Part shown: in pieces, positions 9,870 to 20,920 of the stretch
Position numbering within the stretch: the first letter of the stretch is position 1
Layout: each line of letters starts with the position of its first letter
Source of the DNA: a virus
Length of the DNA stretch: 28,141 nt
Reading direction: 5' to 3' (one strand)
Virus record (IMG/VR): IMGVR_UViG_3300044731_001718
Span: 1-28,141 of that record
Position numbers and translations under genes: made by a program
Notes under the pieces: generated by a model
The model's database searches: none
Seen by the model: the letters and a program-made list of their open reading frames with translations, nothing else
Told to the model about the DNA's origin: nothing

Positions 9870-10631
9870 ATGCCAAGCCAACAATATAAAGATATGGAAG
9901 GAATCAACTTTTCATCTTTAAAATACATGTTAAATGGGCCAGACCATTATAAATACTGGCAAGAAAATAAGCGCCCCCAATCAGACGCAATGCGCCTGGG
10001 AGAATTAATCCATCTAGCGATTTTAGAGCCAGAAGTTTTTGCGGAACAAACTTACATGGGACAAAAATTTAATCGTACGACAAAGCAAGGCAAAGAGTTG
10101 CATGCTCAACAAATCGAAAATGCTGGCAATAGAACTATAATCTTACCAGAAGATAAGGAAGCAATAGACCGCGCACTCTTAGCTTTGTCACGCTGCGATT
10201 TGTGGCAAGAGCTACAAAAAAGCGGGTCACCAAAAGTGGAAGTGGCTATGCAATGGGAAGATCCTTTAACTGGTTTGGGCTTAAAGGGTTGTGCAGATTA
10301 CATAATGGAATCCCCTGCTCTTGGTGGCGTGGCAATCATAGATGTTAAAACAGCGCGCGAACCAATAACGCGTTGGGACATAGCTAGATACCATTACGAC
10401 ATGCAGGCGGCTTATTATCTAGCGGGATATAGAGCTTTAACAGGAGTTGACGCAGAATTTCTATGGTTGCTAGTTGAAACTGGCGAACCTTACGGCTGCC
10501 AGTTTATAGCAGCCAGCGAAGATACTATCTTGCGTGGCAAAGATAAAATGAACGAGGCCCTAAAAAAACTAAAAGAAACTATGACAAGCCAAGATTGGTT
10601 TTCACGGTATAACGAAATTACCATCATCTAA
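9870..10631 (+). CDS. RecE-type phage exonuclease (PD-(D/E)XK)
   Basis: A 253-residue nuclease of the exonuclease VIII/YqaJ-like class, which resects double-stranded ends to give single strands for the annealing protein encoded next. Motifs in order: GELIHLAILEPE (about residues 49-60, the conserved G-x-x-x-H-x-x-x-L-E-P), the acid-containing GCADYIM, then VAIIDVKTA (D and K of the PD-(D/E)XK core, about residue 155) and QAAYYLAGY (about 180). The length matches the isolated nuclease domain of RecE. A CGGGGAT Shine-Dalgarno sequence precedes the ATG. It forms a two-gene recombination cassette with Bet. Confidence 0.88.
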   Translation: MPSQQYKDMEGINFSSLKYMLNGPDHYKYWQENKRPQSDAMRLGELIHLAILEPEVFAEQTYMGQKFNRTTKQGKELHAQQIENAGNRTIILPEDKEAIDRALLALSRCDLWQELQKSGSPKVEVAMQWEDPLTGLGLKGCADYIMESPALGGVAIIDVKTAREPITRWDIARYHYDMQAAYYLAGYRALTGVDAEFLWLLVETGEPYGCQFIAASEDTILRGKDKMNEALKKLKETMTSQDWFSRYNEITII

Positions 10632-10651: not shown

Positions 10652-11602
10652 ATGACTAAGGAAATAGCAGCACAAGAGAAGCAGACGCCTATAACGCTTT
10701 TAGCAGGGCGATACAATATAGACCCTATAGAGATGCAGAAAACGCTTAAAGGAACGGTTGTCCCGAACGGTACTACTGATGCAGAATTTGCAGCGTTTTT
10801 GATGGTTGCTTACGAATATAAGTTAAACCCAATTCTACGCGAAATTTATGCTTTCCCTAAAAAGGGTGGTGGCATACAGCCGATAGTTAGCATTGACGGC
10901 TGGATGAATATTATAAATTCCCATCCGCAATTCGACGGGCTAACTTTTGACGAAAAATTAGAAAACGGCAAAATAGTTTCGATAACCGCAAAAATTTTTA
11001 GAAAAGATAGATCTCATTCTGTGGATGTAACTGAGTACATGGCGGAGTGCGCTAGAGGAACTGAACCCTGGAAGCAATGGCCTGCAAGAATGCTTAGGCA
11101 TAAAGCCGCCATACAAGCGGCGCGCTACGCCTTTGGCTTTAGCGGCATTATGGAGCCAGATGAAGCCGAAAGAATGCTAGATGTTACCCCTAACCAACCG
11201 ACGGGCTTTGCAACAAAGCTTGCCGAAGCAGCAAAGAAGCGCAAAGAGCAGCAGCCTGAAATCATAATCGCCGAGACGGGGGAAGTGGTAACTACTCAGC
11301 CAGAAGAAGAAGGCAGGCTTTCATCAATAATTGCAACGCCCCTAGTGGATATAATTTTACCTGATGAATCACCTAGTACCTTTGGTATTGGTGGAGCTAT
11401 CAGTCCGCCTGAACTTGTGCAGCTTATAGGCTCATGGGCCGTCGAAGACAGAACAAAATTTATCATCAAGAACGAAGACGTTTTAATTGCTATTAATGCG
11501 CGCTTAATAGCAGCTGGGCTTGGTAAAGCAGCCGAGCGGCTTAACGAAATGCGCGTAGATATACAACAAAACGGAGGATTAATCTACGGAGGTTTAATCT
11601 AA
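10652..11602 (+). CDS. bet: Bet/RecT-family single-strand annealing protein
   Basis: A 316-residue recombinase. The region LNPILREIYAFPKKGGGIQP, VSIDGWMNIINSHPQFDGL, IFRKDRSHSVDVTEYMAEC and WPARMLRHKAAIQAARYAFG is the conserved signature of phage recombination protein Bet (RecT superfamily). It anneals complementary single strands made by the exonuclease encoded just upstream (20-base gap). The C-terminal part after about residue 185 is more variable. GGAGA lies upstream of the ATG. Its stop overlaps the start of the next gene. Confidence 0.92.
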   Translation: MTKEIAAQEKQTPITLLAGRYNIDPIEMQKTLKGTVVPNGTTDAEFAAFLMVAYEYKLNPILREIYAFPKKGGGIQPIVSIDGWMNIINSHPQFDGLTFDEKLENGKIVSITAKIFRKDRSHSVDVTEYMAECARGTEPWKQWPARMLRHKAAIQAARYAFGFSGIMEPDEAERMLDVTPNQPTGFATKLAEAAKKRKEQQPEIIIAETGEVVTTQPEEEGRLSSIIATPLVDIILPDESPSTFGIGGAISPPELVQLIGSWAVEDRTKFIIKNEDVLIAINARLIAAGLGKAAERLNEMRVDIQQNGGLIYGGLI

Positions 11603-12174
11603 TGAACACTTACATTTTACTTTGCGTTATCACAGCAGCCTTCTTTGTTACTTGGTATATAATTGGTTGGCACGTCTCTTTTGTGAGAGGCCACGTGCAC
11701 GCGCTAAAAAAACGGCTTGAGGCGCAAAAACAGCCAGCTGAAATAATGTCTTTGCAATGGAAGGACGCACAAAAAGAAGCACTTAAAGTACTGATTAGAG
11801 AAGAGCTTTTTGAAATACGATCAAGGATGGGTCAACATGTAGCGGCAATCTCGCAGTTAACAAAAGAAAATAAATCAATAAGAGATCATCAAGAAAACCT
11901 GGATTCCTTGATCGAAGAACTAAAGGCCGATTGCCTAGAACTAACTGGCCCAAGGCGGGGGTTTTCTCCAATAATAGTTCCTAAAAACGAAAAACCAGCG
12001 CCGCAAAGAGTGCAAGAGTTCTTAGAAAAAAAAGGGCCTAGCAAACGTATAGAAATCATTAGGGGAACTAAAATTTCGAAGACCCACGTTAGCAAAGTTT
12101 TGAAAGAACTAGCTGCTGCTGGCGTTATCGAAAAAACCGAAGAGAAAACTTACAAACTAAAGGAAAAAATATGA
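11602..12174 (+). CDS. Membrane-anchored coiled-coil and winged-helix protein
   Basis: A 190-residue protein with an unusual order of parts: an N-terminal TM helix (YILLCVITAAFFVTWYIIGW, residues 4-23), a charged helical or coiled-coil region (about 30-120), and a C-terminal winged-helix (residues about 143-186; RIEIIRGTKISKTHVSKVLK then ELAAAGVIEK) as in MarR/ArsR-type modules. The start overlaps the bet stop (TAATG), with GGAGG upstream, so it is co-translated with bet. It may tether DNA or a replication complex to the membrane, or sense a signal there. No family member known to me has this arrangement. Confidence 0.65.
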   Translation: MNTYILLCVITAAFFVTWYIIGWHVSFVRGHVHALKKRLEAQKQPAEIMSLQWKDAQKEALKVLIREELFEIRSRMGQHVAAISQLTKENKSIRDHQENLDSLIEELKADCLELTGPRRGFSPIIVPKNEKPAPQRVQEFLEKKGPSKRIEIIRGTKISKTHVSKVLKELAAAGVIEKTEEKTYKLKEKI

Positions 12175-12232: not shown

Positions 12233-12826
12233 ATGGATAATAAGCTTTATCATTACGTGGCTGGTGTACGTGTAGAGGGGGTGCATAAAGGAATCATGGG
12301 CGATACCAGCGGGATCTATGGCGACGTCAGCAAAATCTCTGGAAGCGTCAGTGACATTTATGGAAACGTCAGCGAAATTTGGGGAGACGTCAGCAGGATC
12401 CATGGCGATGCCAGCAGAATCCATGGCGATGCCAGTAGAATCCGTGGAAATGTCAGCAGCATTTGGGGAATCGTCAGCGGAATCTCCGGAAGCGTCAGCA
12501 GCATTTCTGGAAAGGTCAGCAAAATCTCTGGAGACGTCAGCAGAATCCGTGGATATGTCGGCGGAATACGTGGAAATGTCATTAAAATTTCTGGCGACGT
12601 CAGTGACATTTATGGAAACGTCAGTAAAATTTCGGGAGACGTCAGCAGAATTTGGGGAATCGTCAACGGCCTTTATGGAAACGTCAGTAAAATTTCGGGA
12701 GACGTCAGCAGAATCTATGGAAATGTCAGCGGCCTTTTTGGCGACGTTACAGACCTCAAGGGAGATATGACTAGCCTAAAAGGGAAAGCCTCAACACTTT
12801 TAAAGGAGCAAGAGAATGACAAATGA
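12233..12826 (+). CDS. Heptad-repeat (GDVSxI) protein 1
   Basis: A 197-residue protein with a short N-terminal cap (LYHYVAGVRVEGVHKG) and then 24 uninterrupted heptads of consensus x-G-[DNS]-V-S-x-[IL], ending in a charged tail (LLKEQENDK). The V-to-I and I-to-V distances are 3 and 4, the hydrophobic spacing of a coiled coil, but a glycine in every heptad and the V/S/I content also suit a beta-solenoid. I recall similar unnamed repeats in other phages, without function. GGGAGG precedes the ATG. It is followed by two relatives; the next gene overlaps its end by 11 bases. Confidence 0.8.
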   Translation: MDNKLYHYVAGVRVEGVHKGIMGDTSGIYGDVSKISGSVSDIYGNVSEIWGDVSRIHGDASRIHGDASRIRGNVSSIWGIVSGISGSVSSISGKVSKISGDVSRIRGYVGGIRGNVIKISGDVSDIYGNVSKISGDVSRIWGIVNGLYGNVSKISGDVSRIYGNVSGLFGDVTDLKGDMTSLKGKASTLLKEQENDK

Positions 12827-13385
12827 GCTTTATCACTACGTAGACGGGGTAAAAGTAAAAGGTCCCCACGAAAAAATCACGGGTGATGCGTCCAGGATTT
12901 ACGGCAATTGCACGCATATCCGCGGCGATGTCTCAGACCTTTCTGGCGAAGTTTCAAATATTTGTGGAGATGTATCGGGCCTTGGCGGAGATGTATCAGA
13001 TCTCGAAGGAGACGTCGGCGGAATCTCTGGAAACGTCGACGAAATTTGGGGAGACGTCAGCAAAATCTCTGGAAGCGTCAGCGGAATCTCTGGAAGCGTC
13101 AGCAACCTTTCTGGAGACGTCAGCGGAATCTCTGGCGACGTCAATCAAATTTGGGGATATGTCGGCGGAATCTCTGGAGAAGTCAGCGGCCTTTACGGAG
13201 ACGTCAGCGGAATCTCTGGAGGCGTCAATCAAATTTGGGGATATGTCGGCGAAATCTCTGGAAGCGTCAACGAAATTTGGGGAGACGTCAGCGAAATTGT
13301 TGGCGATGCCAGCAACCTTTTTGGAAACGTTACAGGCCTCAAGGGAGACGTGACTAACCTAAAAGGGAAAGCCTCAACACTTTTA
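12288..13385 (+). repeat. Array of 21-bp coding repeats
   Basis: DNA encoding the heptads of the two neighbouring proteins is a degenerate tandem array of 21-bp units (core GGAGACGTCAGC), with many GACGTC sites. The 3' ends of both genes, 12746-12818 and 13329-13401, are almost identical, including the ribosome-binding site of the following gene, which points to tandem gene duplication. The array stays open over long stretches in several frames on both strands. Confidence 0.8.
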
Positions 13386-13415
13386 AAGGAGCAAGAGAAT
13401 GCAAGAAATGGATGA
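12816..13415 (+). CDS. Heptad-repeat (GDVSxI) protein 2
   Basis: A 199-residue paralogue of the gene just upstream. Cap LYHYVDGVKVKGPHEK, then again exactly 24 heptads (for example RGDVSDL, SGNVDEI, WGYVGGI), then LLKEQENARNG. The start overlaps the previous gene by 11 bases and uses AAAGGAG within it. The first heptads (TGDASRI, YGNCTHI) match those of the third paralogue at 14066 better than those of the first, so the three copies look mosaic. Function unknown. Confidence 0.8.
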   Translation: MTNELYHYVDGVKVKGPHEKITGDASRIYGNCTHIRGDVSDLSGEVSNICGDVSGLGGDVSDLEGDVGGISGNVDEIWGDVSKISGSVSGISGSVSNLSGDVSGISGDVNQIWGYVGGISGEVSGLYGDVSGISGGVNQIWGYVGEISGSVNEIWGDVSEIVGDASNLFGNVTGLKGDVTNLKGKASTLLKEQENARNG

Positions 13416-13566
13416 TAAAATGCATGAAGAAATGAAGCAGACAAGGGCTTTAATGCCTGAGCGCACGCCGCAAAATGACCTCTTTGCAAGGTATTTGTCG
13501 GAGATTAATTTAGGCCAGATTGCTAAGCAAAAAGAAAACGCAAGCACAAAAAAAAGTGGGGAGTAA
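13399..13566 (+). CDS. Small helical protein, unknown
   Basis: A 55-residue protein (MQEMDDKMHEEMKQTRALMP onward), methionine-rich and charged at the start and lysine-rich at the end. Its ribosome-binding site AAAGGAG lies in the duplicated 3' end of the preceding repeat gene and its start overlaps that gene by 17 bases. The next gene begins directly after its stop. No family recognised. Confidence 0.6.
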   Translation: MQEMDDKMHEEMKQTRALMPERTPQNDLFARYLSEINLGQIAKQKENASTKKSGE

Positions 13567-13989
13567 ATGGAAGACAGAAAAAAAGAAGCAAAAGAGTTTT
13601 ATCTCGCTATTAAAAAAATGGCCTCAACTTATCGGGTTAAAATATTATATATAACCGAAATGTTGGGCGTCGCAGTCACGACCCCTAGCTTATGCAACCG
13701 AGGCGTGTCTGCTGCCCCGATTGATTGGCGGGAAAAACTCGAAGAAATTTCTAAGGATTTAAAAATCATAGCGGACCAAGAGAAAGACAAAAAATCTGAG
13801 CGCGCAAAAGCCAGGAAGTCAAAAGAGACCTTTATTGTTTGGGACAGAAAAGAAGTGAATGGTTTTGCTATTTTTCTTATTTCCCGTAACGGCAAGTTGG
13901 AATTGACAGCTCCAGGCGATTTTTTTTATAACAAAGCAGTTAGCGATTGGATCCATAAGAATAGCCGCTGCAGAAAAGCAACCCATTGA
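13567..13989 (+). CDS. Unknown protein with possible N-terminal HTH
   Basis: A 140-residue protein starting directly after the previous stop (TAAATG), with GGGGAG upstream. The N-terminal part (YRVKILYITEMLGVAVTTPS, then a helix) could be a degenerate helix-turn-helix. A lysine-rich linker (KDKKSERAKARKSK) leads to a C-terminal part of likely beta structure (VWDRKEVNGFAIFLISRNGK). No known domain assigned. It separates the second and third repeat genes. Confidence 0.6.
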   Translation: MEDRKKEAKEFYLAIKKMASTYRVKILYITEMLGVAVTTPSLCNRGVSAAPIDWREKLEEISKDLKIIADQEKDKKSERAKARKSKETFIVWDRKEVNGFAIFLISRNGKLELTAPGDFFYNKAVSDWIHKNSRCRKATH

Positions 13990-14065
13990 CATATATTGAT
14001 TGTTACCCATCTCTTTTCTGCAATCCCGCTGTTTTATTCTGCATTAATTTTAAAGGAGAGAAAAA

Positions 14066-14581
14066 ATGGATAACGAGCTTTATCACTACGTAGACGGGGT
14101 AAGAGTAAAAGGCCCCCACAAAGGCCCCTACGGAGAAATCACGGGTGATGCGTCAAAGATTTATGGCGATTGCACGAATATCTACGGCGATGTTTCTAAA
14201 ATTACAGGCGATTGCTCTAAGATACGGGGGTACATTTTTGTGCTTAGAGGCGATGTCTCAAATATTCGCGGCAAGGTGTCGTGCATTTGGGGCAGTGTTA
14301 CAAACCTCAAGGGCAATGTCTCAGATATTCGCGGCGATGTTTCTAAGATTACAGGCGACTGCTCTAAGATATGGGGGTGCGTTGATCTGCTTACAGGCGA
14401 CGTTACAGACCTCAAGGGCAATGTTACAAACCTCAAGGGCAATGTCTCAGATATTCGCCGAGATTTGAATAAAATTTATCTTAACTTTTTTATAAAAAAC
14501 GTTATAAAATACGTACTTTTCCCAGTTTTTGTGACCTTTTTGGGCGTTGCTTATTTCTTGCTTATTAATGATTTTTGGTAA
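14066..14581 (+). CDS. Heptad-repeat protein 3 with C-terminal TM anchor
   Basis: A 171-residue relative of the two repeat proteins upstream: cap LYHYVDGVRVKGPHKGPYGE, 16 heptads (several with Cys in place of Val, such as TGDCSKI), then a C-terminal membrane helix (YVLFPVFVTFLGVAYFLLIN). The membrane anchor shows that at least one paralogue is held at the inner membrane, with the repeats on one side as a stalk or solenoid. AAAGGAG precedes the ATG. Together with the next membrane protein it suggests an envelope-related function such as superinfection exclusion, which is inference. Confidence 0.75.
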   Translation: MDNELYHYVDGVRVKGPHKGPYGEITGDASKIYGDCTNIYGDVSKITGDCSKIRGYIFVLRGDVSNIRGKVSCIWGSVTNLKGNVSDIRGDVSKITGDCSKIWGCVDLLTGDVTDLKGNVTNLKGNVSDIRRDLNKIYLNFFIKNVIKYVLFPVFVTFLGVAYFLLINDFW

Positions 14582-14587
14582 GATAAA

Positions 14588-15259
14588 ATGACAACATCTT
14601 GGTTAGGCCTTTTATTGCTGTTGCATGCCGTGCAGCAAATAGGCTCAGCTTTTCTGTTATTCGGTGAGTATGAATTTATTGTTTGGGACATAACCAACGT
14701 TGTGTCCGTCACATTGTTGTCATATTTGCTGTTTCGGAATATCTCTTATCGTTCCCCCCGCCGCAAATTGACAAGTTTTATCTTCTTACTTGTTTCTTCT
14801 TGGTCTGCCGCAAGCTACGCGGTTATTACTCTTTTCCAGCAATCATTATTAATATTCAGTATTTGCTTTTTTGTTAGCATGATTCCCTTCTTCTTTTGGG
14901 CGGCTATGAGAGATTTCGAATTTAGATCAGATAAATATTTAAAAAGTTGCAGTTACTTGATATATAGTCAACCTATAGGTGTCGTTGGTTTAATAGCTCT
15001 TTGCGTTGGTTTCCGTGGTGCTGGCGTATCTCTAGTTGTCAACGGTCGCGAGTTTTCTTACTCGCGAGCTTTCGAAGGCTGGATAATCACAGAGAAAAAA
15101 CATAGGCATCAAAAAAATGGTGTAAAATATCAAAAAATTCGTGACGTGGATTTAGCGCATGCAAGAGAACTCATCGGCAAAAAATGGCACTGGCGGAAAA
15201 ACTGTCTCAGCACATTTTCGCGATACCAAGACAGAAAATGCCCCTGCTGGTGGGCCTGA
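14588..15259 (+). CDS. Multi-pass membrane protein, unknown
   Basis: A 223-residue protein with four or five hydrophobic helices (around residues 3-25, 30-48, 62-80, 84-105, 121-142) and a basic soluble C-terminus. It follows the TM-anchored repeat protein by six bases. The last 33 codons overlap the next gene in a different frame, and the end (RYQDRKCPCWWA) reads unlike normal protein, so the C-terminus may be non-functional or affected by a frameshift. No family recognised; interference with superinfecting phage is one possibility. Confidence 0.55.
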   Translation: MTTSWLGLLLLLHAVQQIGSAFLLFGEYEFIVWDITNVVSVTLLSYLLFRNISYRSPRRKLTSFIFLLVSSWSAASYAVITLFQQSLLIFSICFFVSMIPFFFWAAMRDFEFRSDKYLKSCSYLIYSQPIGVVGLIALCVGFRGAGVSLVVNGREFSYSRAFEGWIITEKKHRHQKNGVKYQKIRDVDLAHARELIGKKWHWRKNCLSTFSRYQDRKCPCWWA

Positions 15260-15727: not shown

Positions 15728-15937
15728 ATGGAAGTTTTTTTAGGTCTATTTGCCGCTCTTGGCGTAACTCTCTCTTTGTTTTTTACGCTTCTTTATCAAA
15801 TTATTTTGGCTCTTTTTATTTGTCTCTGCATGTTTAGCTATGCGGTCCTGCAAGTAGGCGCGTTGCCTTTTCGCGCGGTTGCTAATCTAACTTGTCGTGT
15901 TTACTGGTATGCACGACGCAAAGTGTTTTTGGGTTAG
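15728..15937 (+). CDS. Small two-TM protein of the lysis cassette (possible holin or antiholin)
   Basis: A 69-residue hydrophobic protein with two predicted membrane helices (about residues 2-22 and 25-47) and a basic C-terminus (YWYARRKVFLG). An AGGAGG Shine-Dalgarno sequence is present. It precedes a GTA-type holin and an endolysin, so a role in timing or forming the membrane lesion is likely, but size and topology alone do not separate holin from antiholin. Confidence 0.6.
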   Translation: MEVFLGLFAALGVTLSLFFTLLYQIILALFICLCMFSYAVLQVGALPFRAVANLTCRVYWYARRKVFLG

Positions 15938-15942
15938 CTCGC

Positions 15943-16353
15943 ATGTCGTTGGAGCTTATTAGCGGCGGCATTAATTTAATTAATTCCGTTGTAAATCGCA
16001 TTTGGCCTGATGCGACAGAAGCCGAGAAACAAAAATTAACTTTAGCGCTATCTGAACTAGATGCAGAGCGCGAGACGATGCGCGCTCAGGCGGAAATAAA
16101 TTTACAAGACGCTAAAAGCGAAAATAGGTTTAACTCTGGATGGCGTCCATTTGTGGGGTGGGTATGTGGTATATCTTTTGCTTATGCAGCGTTCTTGGAG
16201 CCGCTCTTACGTTTCATATCTGCAGTTATTTTTGGCTATAGCGGGCCTTTCCCTCAAATTGATACAACTATTACTATGCAAGTTCTTTTCGGTTTGTTGG
16301 GGTTTGCTGGTTTTAGGTCTTTCGAAAAAATCTCAAAAATGAAAGTTAAATAA
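15943..16353 (+). CDS. Three-TM phage holin (GTA-type holin family)
   Basis: A 136-residue protein. An amphipathic N-terminus (MSLELISGGINLINSVVNRI), a charged central helix (EAEKQKLTLALSELDAERET), and the signature FNSGWRPFVGWVCGISFAYA with two further hydrophobic helices and the C-terminal GFAGFRSFEKISK, which matches the 3TM holin family (PF11351 type: GWRP..GW... and LG..G.R..EK). Holins permeabilise the inner membrane to release endolysin. I chose the ATG at 15943 rather than one at 15892, because the latter would overlap the upstream gene. The stop overlaps the endolysin start (TAATG). Confidence 0.85.
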   Translation: MSLELISGGINLINSVVNRIWPDATEAEKQKLTLALSELDAERETMRAQAEINLQDAKSENRFNSGWRPFVGWVCGISFAYAAFLEPLLRFISAVIFGYSGPFPQIDTTITMQVLFGLLGFAGFRSFEKISKMKVK

Positions 16354-17009
16354 TGAACGCATTTAAATATTTTCAACTTAACGATTTTGCTTCACCTGAT
16401 GCAGCTGGCTCTGGCTCTAAAATGGATCATGACTTCATCAGTAAGCTAGATAATTACAGAGAGAAATTTGGCGCTCCTTTGATTGTAACTTCTGGCTATC
16501 GCACGCCTAAGCATAATAGTAAGGTAGCTAGTACTGGCAATGATGGGCCACACACAACGGGACGGGCGGTTGATTTGCAGCCTAAATTGCCAAGCAGTGC
16601 GCAAGCGTTTCTGCTTCTAAAGCTTGCGTTCGAAGCGGAGTTTACTGGCATTGGTTTGCGTCAGGAAGGTCAAGAGCGGAGAAAGAACTTTATCCATTTA
16701 GATGATCTGCAAGAACCTGATTATCCGCGCCCCTCATTCTGGACATATCCCTTGCCGAATGCTGAAAAAATTATTCTTCCTAAAACTAAGAATTTTTGTT
16801 TTGGCACTAAGGCTTATCAGCTTTTGCGCAGTACTGTCATTAACAGTAAAGAGCCAGTCGTAATCTTTGTCCGCCAGCATGGGCCTATAGAAGACAGATT
16901 TATTGCAATGGATTTGAACGAAGATTCTAAAATGTCTCACATTCACACGGTAACAACTTGCTATATGGATCAGCTTGAATATGAGTTTTACAATCAAGCA
17001 ACACGATAG
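16353..17009 (+). CDS. Endolysin, M15-type zinc peptidase with C-terminal extension
   Basis: A 218-residue protein. Residues 1-120 form an M15_3-like peptidase domain that cuts peptidoglycan peptide bridges: VTSGYRTPKHN (45-55), zinc ligands H67 and D74 in HTTGRAVDL, and H115 in FIHLDD. No signal peptide, so it needs the holin encoded immediately upstream. The roughly 90-residue C-terminal part (after 130, including VFVRQHGPIEDRFIAMDLNE and ending QATR) is not part of the usual minimal peptidase and could bind cell wall or be an unrelated fused domain. The start overlaps the holin stop, so the two are coupled. Confidence 0.82.
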   Translation: MNAFKYFQLNDFASPDAAGSGSKMDHDFISKLDNYREKFGAPLIVTSGYRTPKHNSKVASTGNDGPHTTGRAVDLQPKLPSSAQAFLLLKLAFEAEFTGIGLRQEGQERRKNFIHLDDLQEPDYPRPSFWTYPLPNAEKIILPKTKNFCFGTKAYQLLRSTVINSKEPVVIFVRQHGPIEDRFIAMDLNEDSKMSHIHTVTTCYMDQLEYEFYNQATR

Positions 17010-18806: not shown

Positions 18807-20567
18807 TTATAAACTTATAAATTTTATCGTCATAAATAATGGAAAATCTAAAGTATAAAATTTAGCACCAAAACAATAAACCTCATATCCCCCCGATGGT
18901 CTTGTTAATTGAGACCCTGATAGATTAACAATAAAAGTATTTATAGCACTTGATGATTGATAAGCAATATTGTAAAATCTTACATTGATTATGTTTAAAT
19001 CTATTGAAGCAAATAAAGTCGATTGAGCCACGGCATTTCCTGTTATATTAACCTCATATAAAGCCGGAAATGGTGGATTAACCTGTCTGTCTGAATTCGA
19101 CAAAAAAAACCCATTATTAAAAGTAGTAGGTCCCGCAGTCCAAAATTCCCACGTGACTATCCCATTATTAAAAGCCGTTGAACGTAATTGACAATAAGCA
19201 GGGGAATAACTGTATAAACCTGCTTGAGCATCTACTAAGCACGTATTCGCACCTTTGCCGCTTACTAAATTACCAGAAGTGCCATTTGTGCTCAGGACAA
19301 TTTCGTTCGAAGCAGTGGCGGTGGAGCCTTGCGTAAAAGGCCCTAAATACATGTTGGCATTGCCGCCAGTTTTATTAAATCCTGAATACTGGCCTACTGC
19401 TAAATTGTCTCTTGCAGTGCCGCCAAGATAGAGAAAAGTCCCTAAGCCTATCCCAATATTACGACCATCGCCCGCCGTGAGGGGTGAGGAAGCGGTTGAA
19501 AAAGAGCCCGCGCCAATGACGATATTACCGCCACCTGTGGTTATACTTGCAGCAGCATCGCCAATGATAATGTTAGTTGACCCGCTTGTTATATTTGGCC
19601 CTGCATCATCGCCCAAAAGTTGATTGTCCGTGCCTAAAGTCGAATCTCCAGTCCTCAAAAAATGCGGCGTCGCAACAACATCTAAAGTGCTAGATGCAAA
19701 AGATAAATTGCTACCTGTGGCAATCTCCTGCGCGGCTCCTGTGCCCGCAGACGTTCGGCCCAAAAGCTTTCCAGTTGTCATTGTTAGGCCGTTACCCGAA
19801 GCATAGGCGGACGGTGCGACATAATCAGTAGCTACGCCAGCTATGCTTAATACTCCTGTTGACGTGGTATTTTTAACTATGCCAGTGGCCAGAGAGCCTA
19901 AAAATTGTGCGCCAGATAACCCGCTATCTGCCGTGCCCTGCACGATAAATTTATTGGCAAAAGGCACGTCTGCCGATCCATCCGTGCTATTACCAGCTAA
20001 GGCTCTTGGTGTAGTCCACTTAGCAGCAGTGGTTGCGGTAGCGGCGTTTCCTACCAATGCGCCAGTAAAAGTCGTGGCCGCGAGGTTGTTCGTGTTTGAG
20101 TTGTAAGCCAGACCAGTATTCGTCTTTGCCGCAATGCTGCTTTGCGTCCCGCTATCAGTCACAAAGGTTAAAAAGCATGTGGCATCTGTCGCTTCATTTG
20201 CCGTCGTTATATTGGTGGCCGTGGTAGCGGTTGTGGCGGTAGTGGCGGTAGTGGCCGTAGTAGCTGTCGCCGCATTACCTGAGATGTCAATCCCAGCAGT
20301 GCCAGAAGCAATATTGGCCGCAGTTAAATTGGTTAAATTTGCGCCAGAAACAGCTCCAAAGGAACCGCTCCAAGTGCCAGTTGTGATTGTGCCCACCGTA
20401 TCAATTGAGGTCAGGCCGCGATTAATCCACTTGGATGATGTTTGATCGTAAGATAAAAAGTCTTTATTGGCTAAAGTAGATAGTTGAACATCATCTAAAA
20501 GAGATAGCCTGGAGACCCCAGACCCACCCACGCCTGCGCCTAAAAGCGATGTAAGTAAGCTGCTCAC
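18807..20567 (-). CDS. Tail-fibre or spike-like protein
   Basis: About 586 residues. The N-terminal part includes ANLTNLTAANIASGTAGIDI and GNAATATTATTATTATTATT, as in phage fibre shafts. The middle has repeats of the head-domain style of trimeric adhesins (NIIIGDAAA, GNIVIGAGS, DNLAVGQYSG). The C-terminus (about 140 residues, GNAVAQSTLFASIDLNIINV) is beta-rich and C1q-like, a plausible trimeric receptor-binding tip. I chose the GTG at 20567, which overlaps the previous stop by one base (TAGTG); a GTG at 20645 would overlap by 79 bases, and neither has a strong Shine-Dalgarno sequence. It would bind the host surface. Confidence 0.8.
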   Translation of the reverse strand: MSSLLTSLLGAGVGGSGVSRLSLLDDVQLSTLANKDFLSYDQTSSKWINRGLTSIDTVGTITTGTWSGSFGAVSGANLTNLTAANIASGTAGIDISGNAATATTATTATTATTATTATNITTANEATDATCFLTFVTDSGTQSSIAAKTNTGLAYNSNTNNLAATTFTGALVGNAATATTAAKWTTPRALAGNSTDGSADVPFANKFIVQGTADSGLSGAQFLGSLATGIVKNTTSTGVLSIAGVATDYVAPSAYASGNGLTMTTGKLLGRTSAGTGAAQEIATGSNLSFASSTLDVVATPHFLRTGDSTLGTDNQLLGDDAGPNITSGSTNIIIGDAAASITTGGGNIVIGAGSFSTASSPLTAGDGRNIGIGLGTFLYLGGTARDNLAVGQYSGFNKTGGNANMYLGPFTQGSTATASNEIVLSTNGTSGNLVSGKGANTCLVDAQAGLYSYSPAYCQLRSTAFNNGIVTWEFWTAGPTTFNNGFFLSNSDRQVNPPFPALYEVNITGNAVAQSTLFASIDLNIINVRFYNIAYQSSSAINTFIVNLSGSQLTRPSGGYEVYCFGAKFYTLDFPLFMTIKFISL

Positions 20568-20920
20568 TATAGTGCTCGCGTGACTAATGTCATAAGGCAA
20601 TCCGCCGCTTGCGACGCATTGCTCTCGAGCTTTATAAAGCGACACCCAGCAAGATCAAAAGGCACAAGGGCATAGTAAAATCCTGCTGCGCAAGTTATTG
20701 TTGCTGGACTATTGTCGGTGTTACGCACCTGTTGATAAGTGCCGCCGAAAGTGGTTGCAGAGTGTACGGTAAGAGATGATCCAGTAAAGCCAGCAGGTAT
20801 TGATAGGCCGATTAGCGCAGTGCCGTGGAGGTCCAAGGCGTTAGAAAAGGTATCTCCAGCCTGTATCATCGCAAGAGTGTCTGATCTTAAGACCGATTGA
20901 AACTCGCTACTGCTGGACAT
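20567..20920 (-). CDS. Small beta-rich structural protein
   Basis: A 117-residue protein (MSSSSEFQSVLRSDTLAMIQ onward) with alternating small and hydrophobic residues typical of a beta-sandwich; GFTGSSLTVHSATTFGGTYQ is a pattern I recall in head or tail accessory proteins of alphaproteobacterial phages. AAAAGGTAAAAA precedes the ATG. It directly precedes the fibre gene and may connect the fibre or decorate the virion. Confidence 0.65.
   Translation of the reverse strand: MSSSSEFQSVLRSDTLAMIQAGDTFSNALDLHGTALIGLSIPAGFTGSSLTVHSATTFGGTYQQVRNTDNSPATITCAAGFYYALVPFDLAGCRFIKLESNASQAADCLMTLVTRAL

Follow-up and report, generated by a model that had tools for sequence, protein, structure and literature searches.

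The window analysed here is the whole of a 28,141-base IMG/VR virus record, which carries between its recombination and its lysis genes three genes encoding long, regular arrays of heptads. This raises the question of what kind of protein these genes encode, how it folds, and what it does in a phage. The original prediction, made from the same DNA, described three capped paralogues, left coiled coil and beta-solenoid side by side as possible folds, and proposed an envelope-associated exclusion system or a surface scaffold.

Three repeat proteins between recombination and lysis genes

The repeat genes and the neighbouring genes described in this paragraph lie on the plus strand, except for the virion genes. 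Upstream, a RecE-like PD-(D/E)XK nuclease (DUF3799; 9870..10631) is followed by a RecT single-strand annealing protein (10652..11602). The gene directly upstream of the first repeat gene (11602..12174) encodes a protein that has an N-terminal transmembrane (TM) helix, is probably a coiled coil in its middle, and ends in a winged helix; it is possibly a membrane-tethered DNA-binding protein. Repeat gene A (12233..12826) encodes 197 aa consisting of a cap (aa 1-21), 24 heptads (aa 22-189), and the tail LKEQENDK. Its end is overlapped by 11 bases by the start of repeat gene B (12816..13415; 199 aa, cap aa 1-21, 24 heptads aa 22-189), the end of which is in turn overlapped by a small ORF of 55 aa (13399..13566). 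After a gene encoding 140 aa (13567..13989) follows repeat gene C (14066..14581; 171 aa) with a cap (aa 1-25), 16 heptads (aa 26-137), and a C-terminal TM helix. The next gene (14588..15259) encodes the predicted multi-pass membrane protein, which has four hydrophobic segments. Searches for relatives of this membrane protein and of the 140-aa gene yielded the sister phage alone. Further downstream, a 3-TM holin (15892..16353) and a Peptidase M15 endolysin (16353..17009) are encoded, while the virion genes (terminase, portal, capsid) lie on the opposite strand from about 18.8 kb toward the far end of the window. The placement between recombination and lysis genes and outside the virion module was therefore as originally described, and the latter also applies family-wide (see below). 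The long fibre-like gene of the window (18807-20645) differs from its counterpart in the sister phage (L005:8422-10614), in which a collagen-like GPQGTQGPPGEKGEPG stretch lies close to the start; the 3' ends differ too. This suggests that the tail fibre region has been exchanged.

The existence of three paralogues with a common cap and 24, 24, and 16 heptads was confirmed by translation and permutation. The caps read MDNKLYHYVAGVRVEGVHKG in A, MTNELYHYVDGVKVKGPHEK in B, and MDNELYHYVDGVRVKGPHKG in C, and all three contain the N-cap pattern [LI][YFW][HY]..G....G.[HN] in the form LYHYV.GVRV.G.H or near it. The arrays occupy 12296..12799 (A), 12879..13382 (B), and 14141..14476 (C) on the plus strand. 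All heptads are in register, with no single-residue indel across the 24, 24, and 16 units, and the longest in-register G....[IL] run is 25 in A, 25 in B, and 16 in C, compared with maxima of 4, 4, and 3 in 20,000 permutations per protein. The unit is degenerate at positions 3-6 (D in 47% and N in 18%, V in 74%, S in 64%, I in 71% or L in 29%), and the Gly found in 100% of heptads follows from the construction of the register. The hydrophobic residues at positions 4 and 7 have the predicted 3-4 spacing of coiled coils, unlike simple beta alternation, which counts against a solenoid. At the DNA level, the arrays of A and B have periods of 21 bases and multiples thereof (21 in A; 21, 42, and 84 in B), and C encodes the same motif with different codons. 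The region of A and B (12233-13415) contains 12 GACGTC sites, arising from GAC-GTC codons, which are all the GACGTC sites of the window; C has none despite encoding the same motif. The net charge of the arrays is +4 in A, -16 in B, and +5 in C. The TM segment of C, YVLFPVFVTFLGVAYFLLI (14510..14566, plus strand), is backed by a 19-residue window with a Kyte-Doolittle value of 2.33 (aa 149-167), in agreement with the original prediction.

A family of heptapeptide-repeat proteins in uncultured phages

Direct searches matched only the sister phage contig (L005, 36.9 kb) and MW202691.1 (Manatee Spring), the copy of which reads GDCSSLRGDCSSLYGDCTGL. Among 50,697 phage records, a single clear member was found, where it is annotated as hypothetical. 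An alignment search led to 78 viral loci, a search with a V-type DNA pattern to 50 stretches, and a genome scan to four bacterial assemblies. In total, 156 repeat genes are found on 124 loci (about 110 contigs, some loci being on the same contig) with one to four copies per locus, and nearly all carriers are uncultured phages. The contigs often start or stop within arrays (e.g. L022/L029, L019/L023, L121/L128); assemblies thus break there, and the true copy numbers are likely higher than those counted.

All three proteins of the window conform to the family heptad x-G-[DN]-[VC]-[ST]-x-[IL], in tandem and in register. Two subtypes can be distinguished by their core pair, V/I (G-D-V-S-x-I) or C/L (G-D-C-S-x-L), with the unit being otherwise the same; in C-type heptads, position 4 (a in coiled-coil notation) is Cys in 96%. 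Position 3 is Asp in about two thirds of the heptads of the family, and the charge has a median of about -0.35 per heptad with a range from -1.0 to +0.3. The N-cap LYHY..G....G.H/N is common to V-type and C-type members. A C-cap, GNLD.CEIT.EER..GI.I..LI, is frequent in both subtypes and not universal, a loose pattern of it being present in 70 of the 156 members. The C-cap pattern G[ND][LI]D.C.[IL]T..[ED]R..G..I..LI is absent from A, B, and C, which end with KGKASTLLKEQEN or the TM helix. In some members (L058:6058-6759, L063:5980-6543, L075:1-366) an extra C-terminal domain (LEGEIIATLWVWRYPIVKI.GKKEIIAVGCMRFEKKPTYEEV) replaces the C-cap; for the domain of L058, no match was found in Pfam or NCBIfam. 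Two very long members of 607 and 686 aa (L122:6030-7850 and L129:1748-3805), on the 46.8-kb contig IMGVR_UViG_3300027863_001052, contain more than one array or segments that are fused. The repeat is not described by any Pfam, PHROGs, or NCBIfam model, and motif searches of the open literature returned nothing relevant. Thus, the heptapeptide-repeat proteins are a real, large, widespread, and previously unnamed phage family.

Heptad-patterned proteins draw spurious profile labels such as minor head protein, SlaB, and Lpp, and automated annotation would wrongly assign this family to virion or envelope proteins. Apart from Lpp and MSG, which reflect only the heptad or the Cys pattern, the library matches are short or far under the cut-off. 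The leucine-zipper lipoprotein Lpp (PF04728) was rejected for A and B, which score above its cut-off and yet have no signal peptide or lipobox and contain 17-22% Gly in their arrays. Plasmid matches in Salmonella autotransporter loci were set aside; the one region examined aligned with the opposite strand of the annotated gene. The apparent best match is the PHROG phrog_19577 ('minor head protein'), with E-values down to 1e-20. By tblastn, it is traced to orf378 of Bacillus phage phiNIT1 and its relatives, an identification that rests on the length of 378 residues and the RefSeq name. This protein reads KTDMTTAKSDISTLKSDVGNAK and shares with the family D-V-S-x-L heptads and 3-4 spacing. Its KTDVSTL heptads, however, have K/Q-T-D instead of x-G-D and no Gly in the unit, its composition is that of a helical coiled coil, and it has no caps and another domain plan. 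It is therefore a look-alike, and the repeats do not trace to established virion proteins by this route. Decoys preserving only the a/d positions missed phrog_19577 and reached other weak families, so that the weak PHROG, Pfam, and NCBIfam matches are treated as heptad noise.

Sequence constraint and predicted fold of the arrays

Between heptads of one array, pN/pS is 0.36-0.48 at the core positions (2, 3, 4, 5, and 7) and 0.76-1.35 at positions 1 and 6. Compared with A and B, C has kept the motif with largely different codons (between-array core pS 0.82-0.83). Core constraint and codon divergence together indicate that the motif is held at the protein level and is more than a DNA repeat. Orthologues with flanks of about 97-100% identity differ in length by 28, 35, 42, 56, 63, or 91 residues, which could partly be due to assembly collapse of repeats in metagenome contigs. 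All of these differences are whole heptads, in odd as well as even numbers, and the odd changes indicate that heptads are interchangeable. The sister phage has no B, and its A-type array runs straight into a B-like 3' end.

AlphaFold2 (AF2) models were calculated as monomers for two family members with 27 and 24 family sequences, respectively. Both show mostly one five-residue strand and a two-residue Gly-[Asp/Asn] turn per heptad and no helix in the arrays. Mean pLDDT was 62 and 68, and the central part of the second model reaches 83. AF2 has been documented to over-predict or invent beta-solenoids for repeat sequences (PMC11795689), and the modelled solenoid is therefore not proof. Independent of AF2, a solenoid is supported by the Gly content of the arrays (21%), a helix cost of 0.61 kcal/residue (phage coiled coil 0.50, GCN4 0.37), the Cys of C-type heptads, and the conserved end caps. 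The Gly-[Asp/Asn] pair, which is typical of tight beta-turns, points the same way. Neither model has a confident match among solved structures. A profile search of PDB sequences gave a weak match to the Lolium beta-roll 3ult (E 0.009), and Foldseek returned generic beta-helices, none of them significant, with pentapeptide-repeat proteins among the nearest of the second model. The single match in a viral structure library (E 9.5e-4, TM 0.16) is not meaningful. Stacking in 14-residue coils should make residues two heptads apart correlate. This signal seemed present at first but fell to a z of about 2 after filtering of redundancy and recent duplications; it is thus weakly positive, which counts against the solenoid.

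An alpha-helical coiled coil, trimeric or other, with V at a and I at d and serving as a stalk, tether, or trimerisation rod, would account for the perfect 3-4 spacing and for weak profile matches to Lpp, the SlaB coiled coil, the gp26 tail needle, and trimeric autotransporters. Some weak PHROG families are, however, also reached by the a/d-only decoys, and the best-scoring coiled-coil protein has no Gly in its unit. The family has an invariant Gly at f and, in C-type heptads, the nearly constant Cys at a; about half of the heptads have another Gly, at position 6. Together with the high helix cost and the helix-free AF2 monomers, this makes a coiled coil quite unlikely. Little probability is likewise given to an intrinsically disordered protein that has no fixed fold and is kept by repeat expansion. 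Low pLDDT, a composition rich in Gly, Ser, and Asp, and the solenoid bias of AF2 (PMC11795689) are compatible with disorder, but the fixed heptad length, the constrained core, the conserved caps, and the two hydrophobic positions in every heptad are not what it would lead one to expect. Between the two folds originally considered, chemistry and models thus favour the solenoid at low AF2 confidence, and the arrays probably fold as beta-solenoids.

Association with recombination genes and candidate functions

Conservation of the neighbourhood had been regarded as informative at the outset, and family-wide the recognised neighbours are dominated by recombination genes. In a neighbour survey of 149 genes, at most three genes from a repeat gene, the commonest recognised PHROG categories comprise RecE-like exonuclease, exonuclease, ERF annealing protein, helicase, exonuclease VIII, Gam-like end protection, and Sak4; the commonest Pfam neighbours are YqaJ, ERF, and PDDEXK. 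A placement test on whole contigs used YqaJ, ERF, or PDDEXK_1 as recombination markers and portal or terminase as virion markers. A recombination marker lies within 3 kb of the repeats on 11 of 19 marker-bearing contigs compared with 3.8 expected (p=0.00025), and within 5 kb on 16 of 19, which none of 20,000 random placements reached. PDDEXK_1 is a broad nuclease superfamily; with YqaJ and ERF alone, p is 0.004. On a contig binned as Patescibacteria (L091), apparent ERF and YqaJ genes, as judged by sequence, come immediately after the repeat gene. Closeness to recombination genes is an association and not a function, and the tightness of this link provides a concrete, testable functional lead.

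A virion or tail fibre component would fit the general observation that phage tails commonly hold repeat-rich proteins, and the PHROG label 'minor head protein' points the same way. This reading is highly improbable, since the labelled protein is a coiled coil without the family motif, portal or terminase genes were found within 3 kb of the repeats on none of eight contigs, and the virion genes of the window are encoded on the opposite strand, beyond about 18.8 kb.

The proposed envelope-associated exclusion system or surface scaffold fares hardly better. In its favour, C bears a TM helix and could act as anchor with A and B as partners, a membrane protein is encoded next to it, and the winged-helix protein upstream likewise has an N-terminal TM helix. 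Among the 156 genes, however, a C-terminal TM anchor is limited to C and the copy of the sister phage, a doubtful N-terminal extension in L043 being the only other possible TM segment; envelope exclusion is thus left unsupported. The sister phage has no B, and the neighbouring genes are orphans shared by these two phages. The residues ahead of the TM helix of C, KIYLNFFIKNVIKY, are rich in Lys, for which the positive-inside rule predicts an array on the cytoplasmic side. Neighbours were also checked for defence systems, and none could be tied to the family, with only generic helicase, restriction, and methylase matches being found. Superinfection exclusion at the envelope or a membrane scaffold is accordingly regarded as very unlikely.

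A DNA mimic of the pentapeptide-repeat (Qnr/MfpA) kind, blocking gyrase or nucleases, is also unlikely, though it draws on several observations. These are the Asp at position 3, the negative median charge of the family, the weak likeness of one model to AlbG, EfsQnr, and MfpA as nearest solved folds, and the presence of pentapeptide-repeat genes close to the heptad arrays of four loci (L020, L024, L030, L071). As a general reading it was rejected on the charge test, because the arrays of A and C are net positive. Only B is negative, the family range extends to positive values, and with such non-uniform charge no single electrostatic mechanism fits. Furthermore, orthologue changes by odd numbers of heptads fit a mimic of fixed length badly. 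The Pfam pentapeptide repeat (A[DN]LXX) has no match in the proteins of the window, the period of which is seven.

What appears most consistent with these data is an early, cytoplasmic, capped beta-solenoid rod that is accessory to the recombination region and has a variable binding surface, a picture for which belief and doubt are evenly balanced. Each heptad would contribute one short beta-strand ([VC]-[ST]-x-[IL]-x) and then a tight turn of two residues, Gly-[Asp/Asn]; stacked on one another, these strands would build a straight rod closed by the N-cap and often a C-cap. The small core residues are fixed, and the variable positions 1 and 6 may constitute the binding surface. The rod would be made early, from or beside the recombination/replication operon, where it would most likely act as an accessory or host-takeover binding factor. 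Given the analogous position of Gam in lambda red, its target may be a host nuclease, topoisomerase, or nucleoprotein. Its length is quickly retuned by gain or loss of 21-bp units, and in the lineage of the window phage one copy has become a tail-anchored form with its array probably facing the cytoplasm. Of this picture, the family with its caps, its place in the genome, and its length changes by whole heptads are shown, and the fold, early expression, and function are inferred. A bolder version is tentative: a new, widespread heptapeptide beta-solenoid class would serve the recombination module, one way being to hold or block host nucleases, and would here have partly moved to the inner membrane. 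Recombination among its own 21-bp units, perhaps aided by the adjoining annealing protein, would tune the length of the rod.

Several known systems resemble parts of this picture. The IRI antifreeze protein of Lolium perenne (PDB 3ULT) is a beta-roll with coils of 14-15 residues (PMC7383708). It resembles the family in forming a beta-roll from short repeats and in the weak profile match, but is a plant ice-binding protein for which homology to the family is not shown. Qnr, MfpA, and AlbG share with it a short tandem unit, a core of small and aliphatic residues, a rod-like solenoid (predicted for the family), and the absence of a catalytic motif, along with the weak fold match; in contrast, the family unit has seven residues instead of five, an invariant Gly, a different motif, and a charge that is not uniformly negative. 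The heads of YadA/Hep_Hag proteins are short-repeat beta-rolls as well. Weak matches to Hep_Hag and stalk chains were obtained, whereas the family has neither a signal peptide nor a membrane-anchor domain of this type and is not located among surface genes. Lambda Gam and other accessory proteins of recombination modules have no sequence similarity to the family, and a common role would be hypothetical; the likeness lies in their place beside exonuclease and annealing protein genes. The seven-residue unit would join the known short-repeat solenoids as a new member, and with V and C versions on one scaffold and length changes by whole units, it offers a good system for studies of repeat-protein evolution and design.
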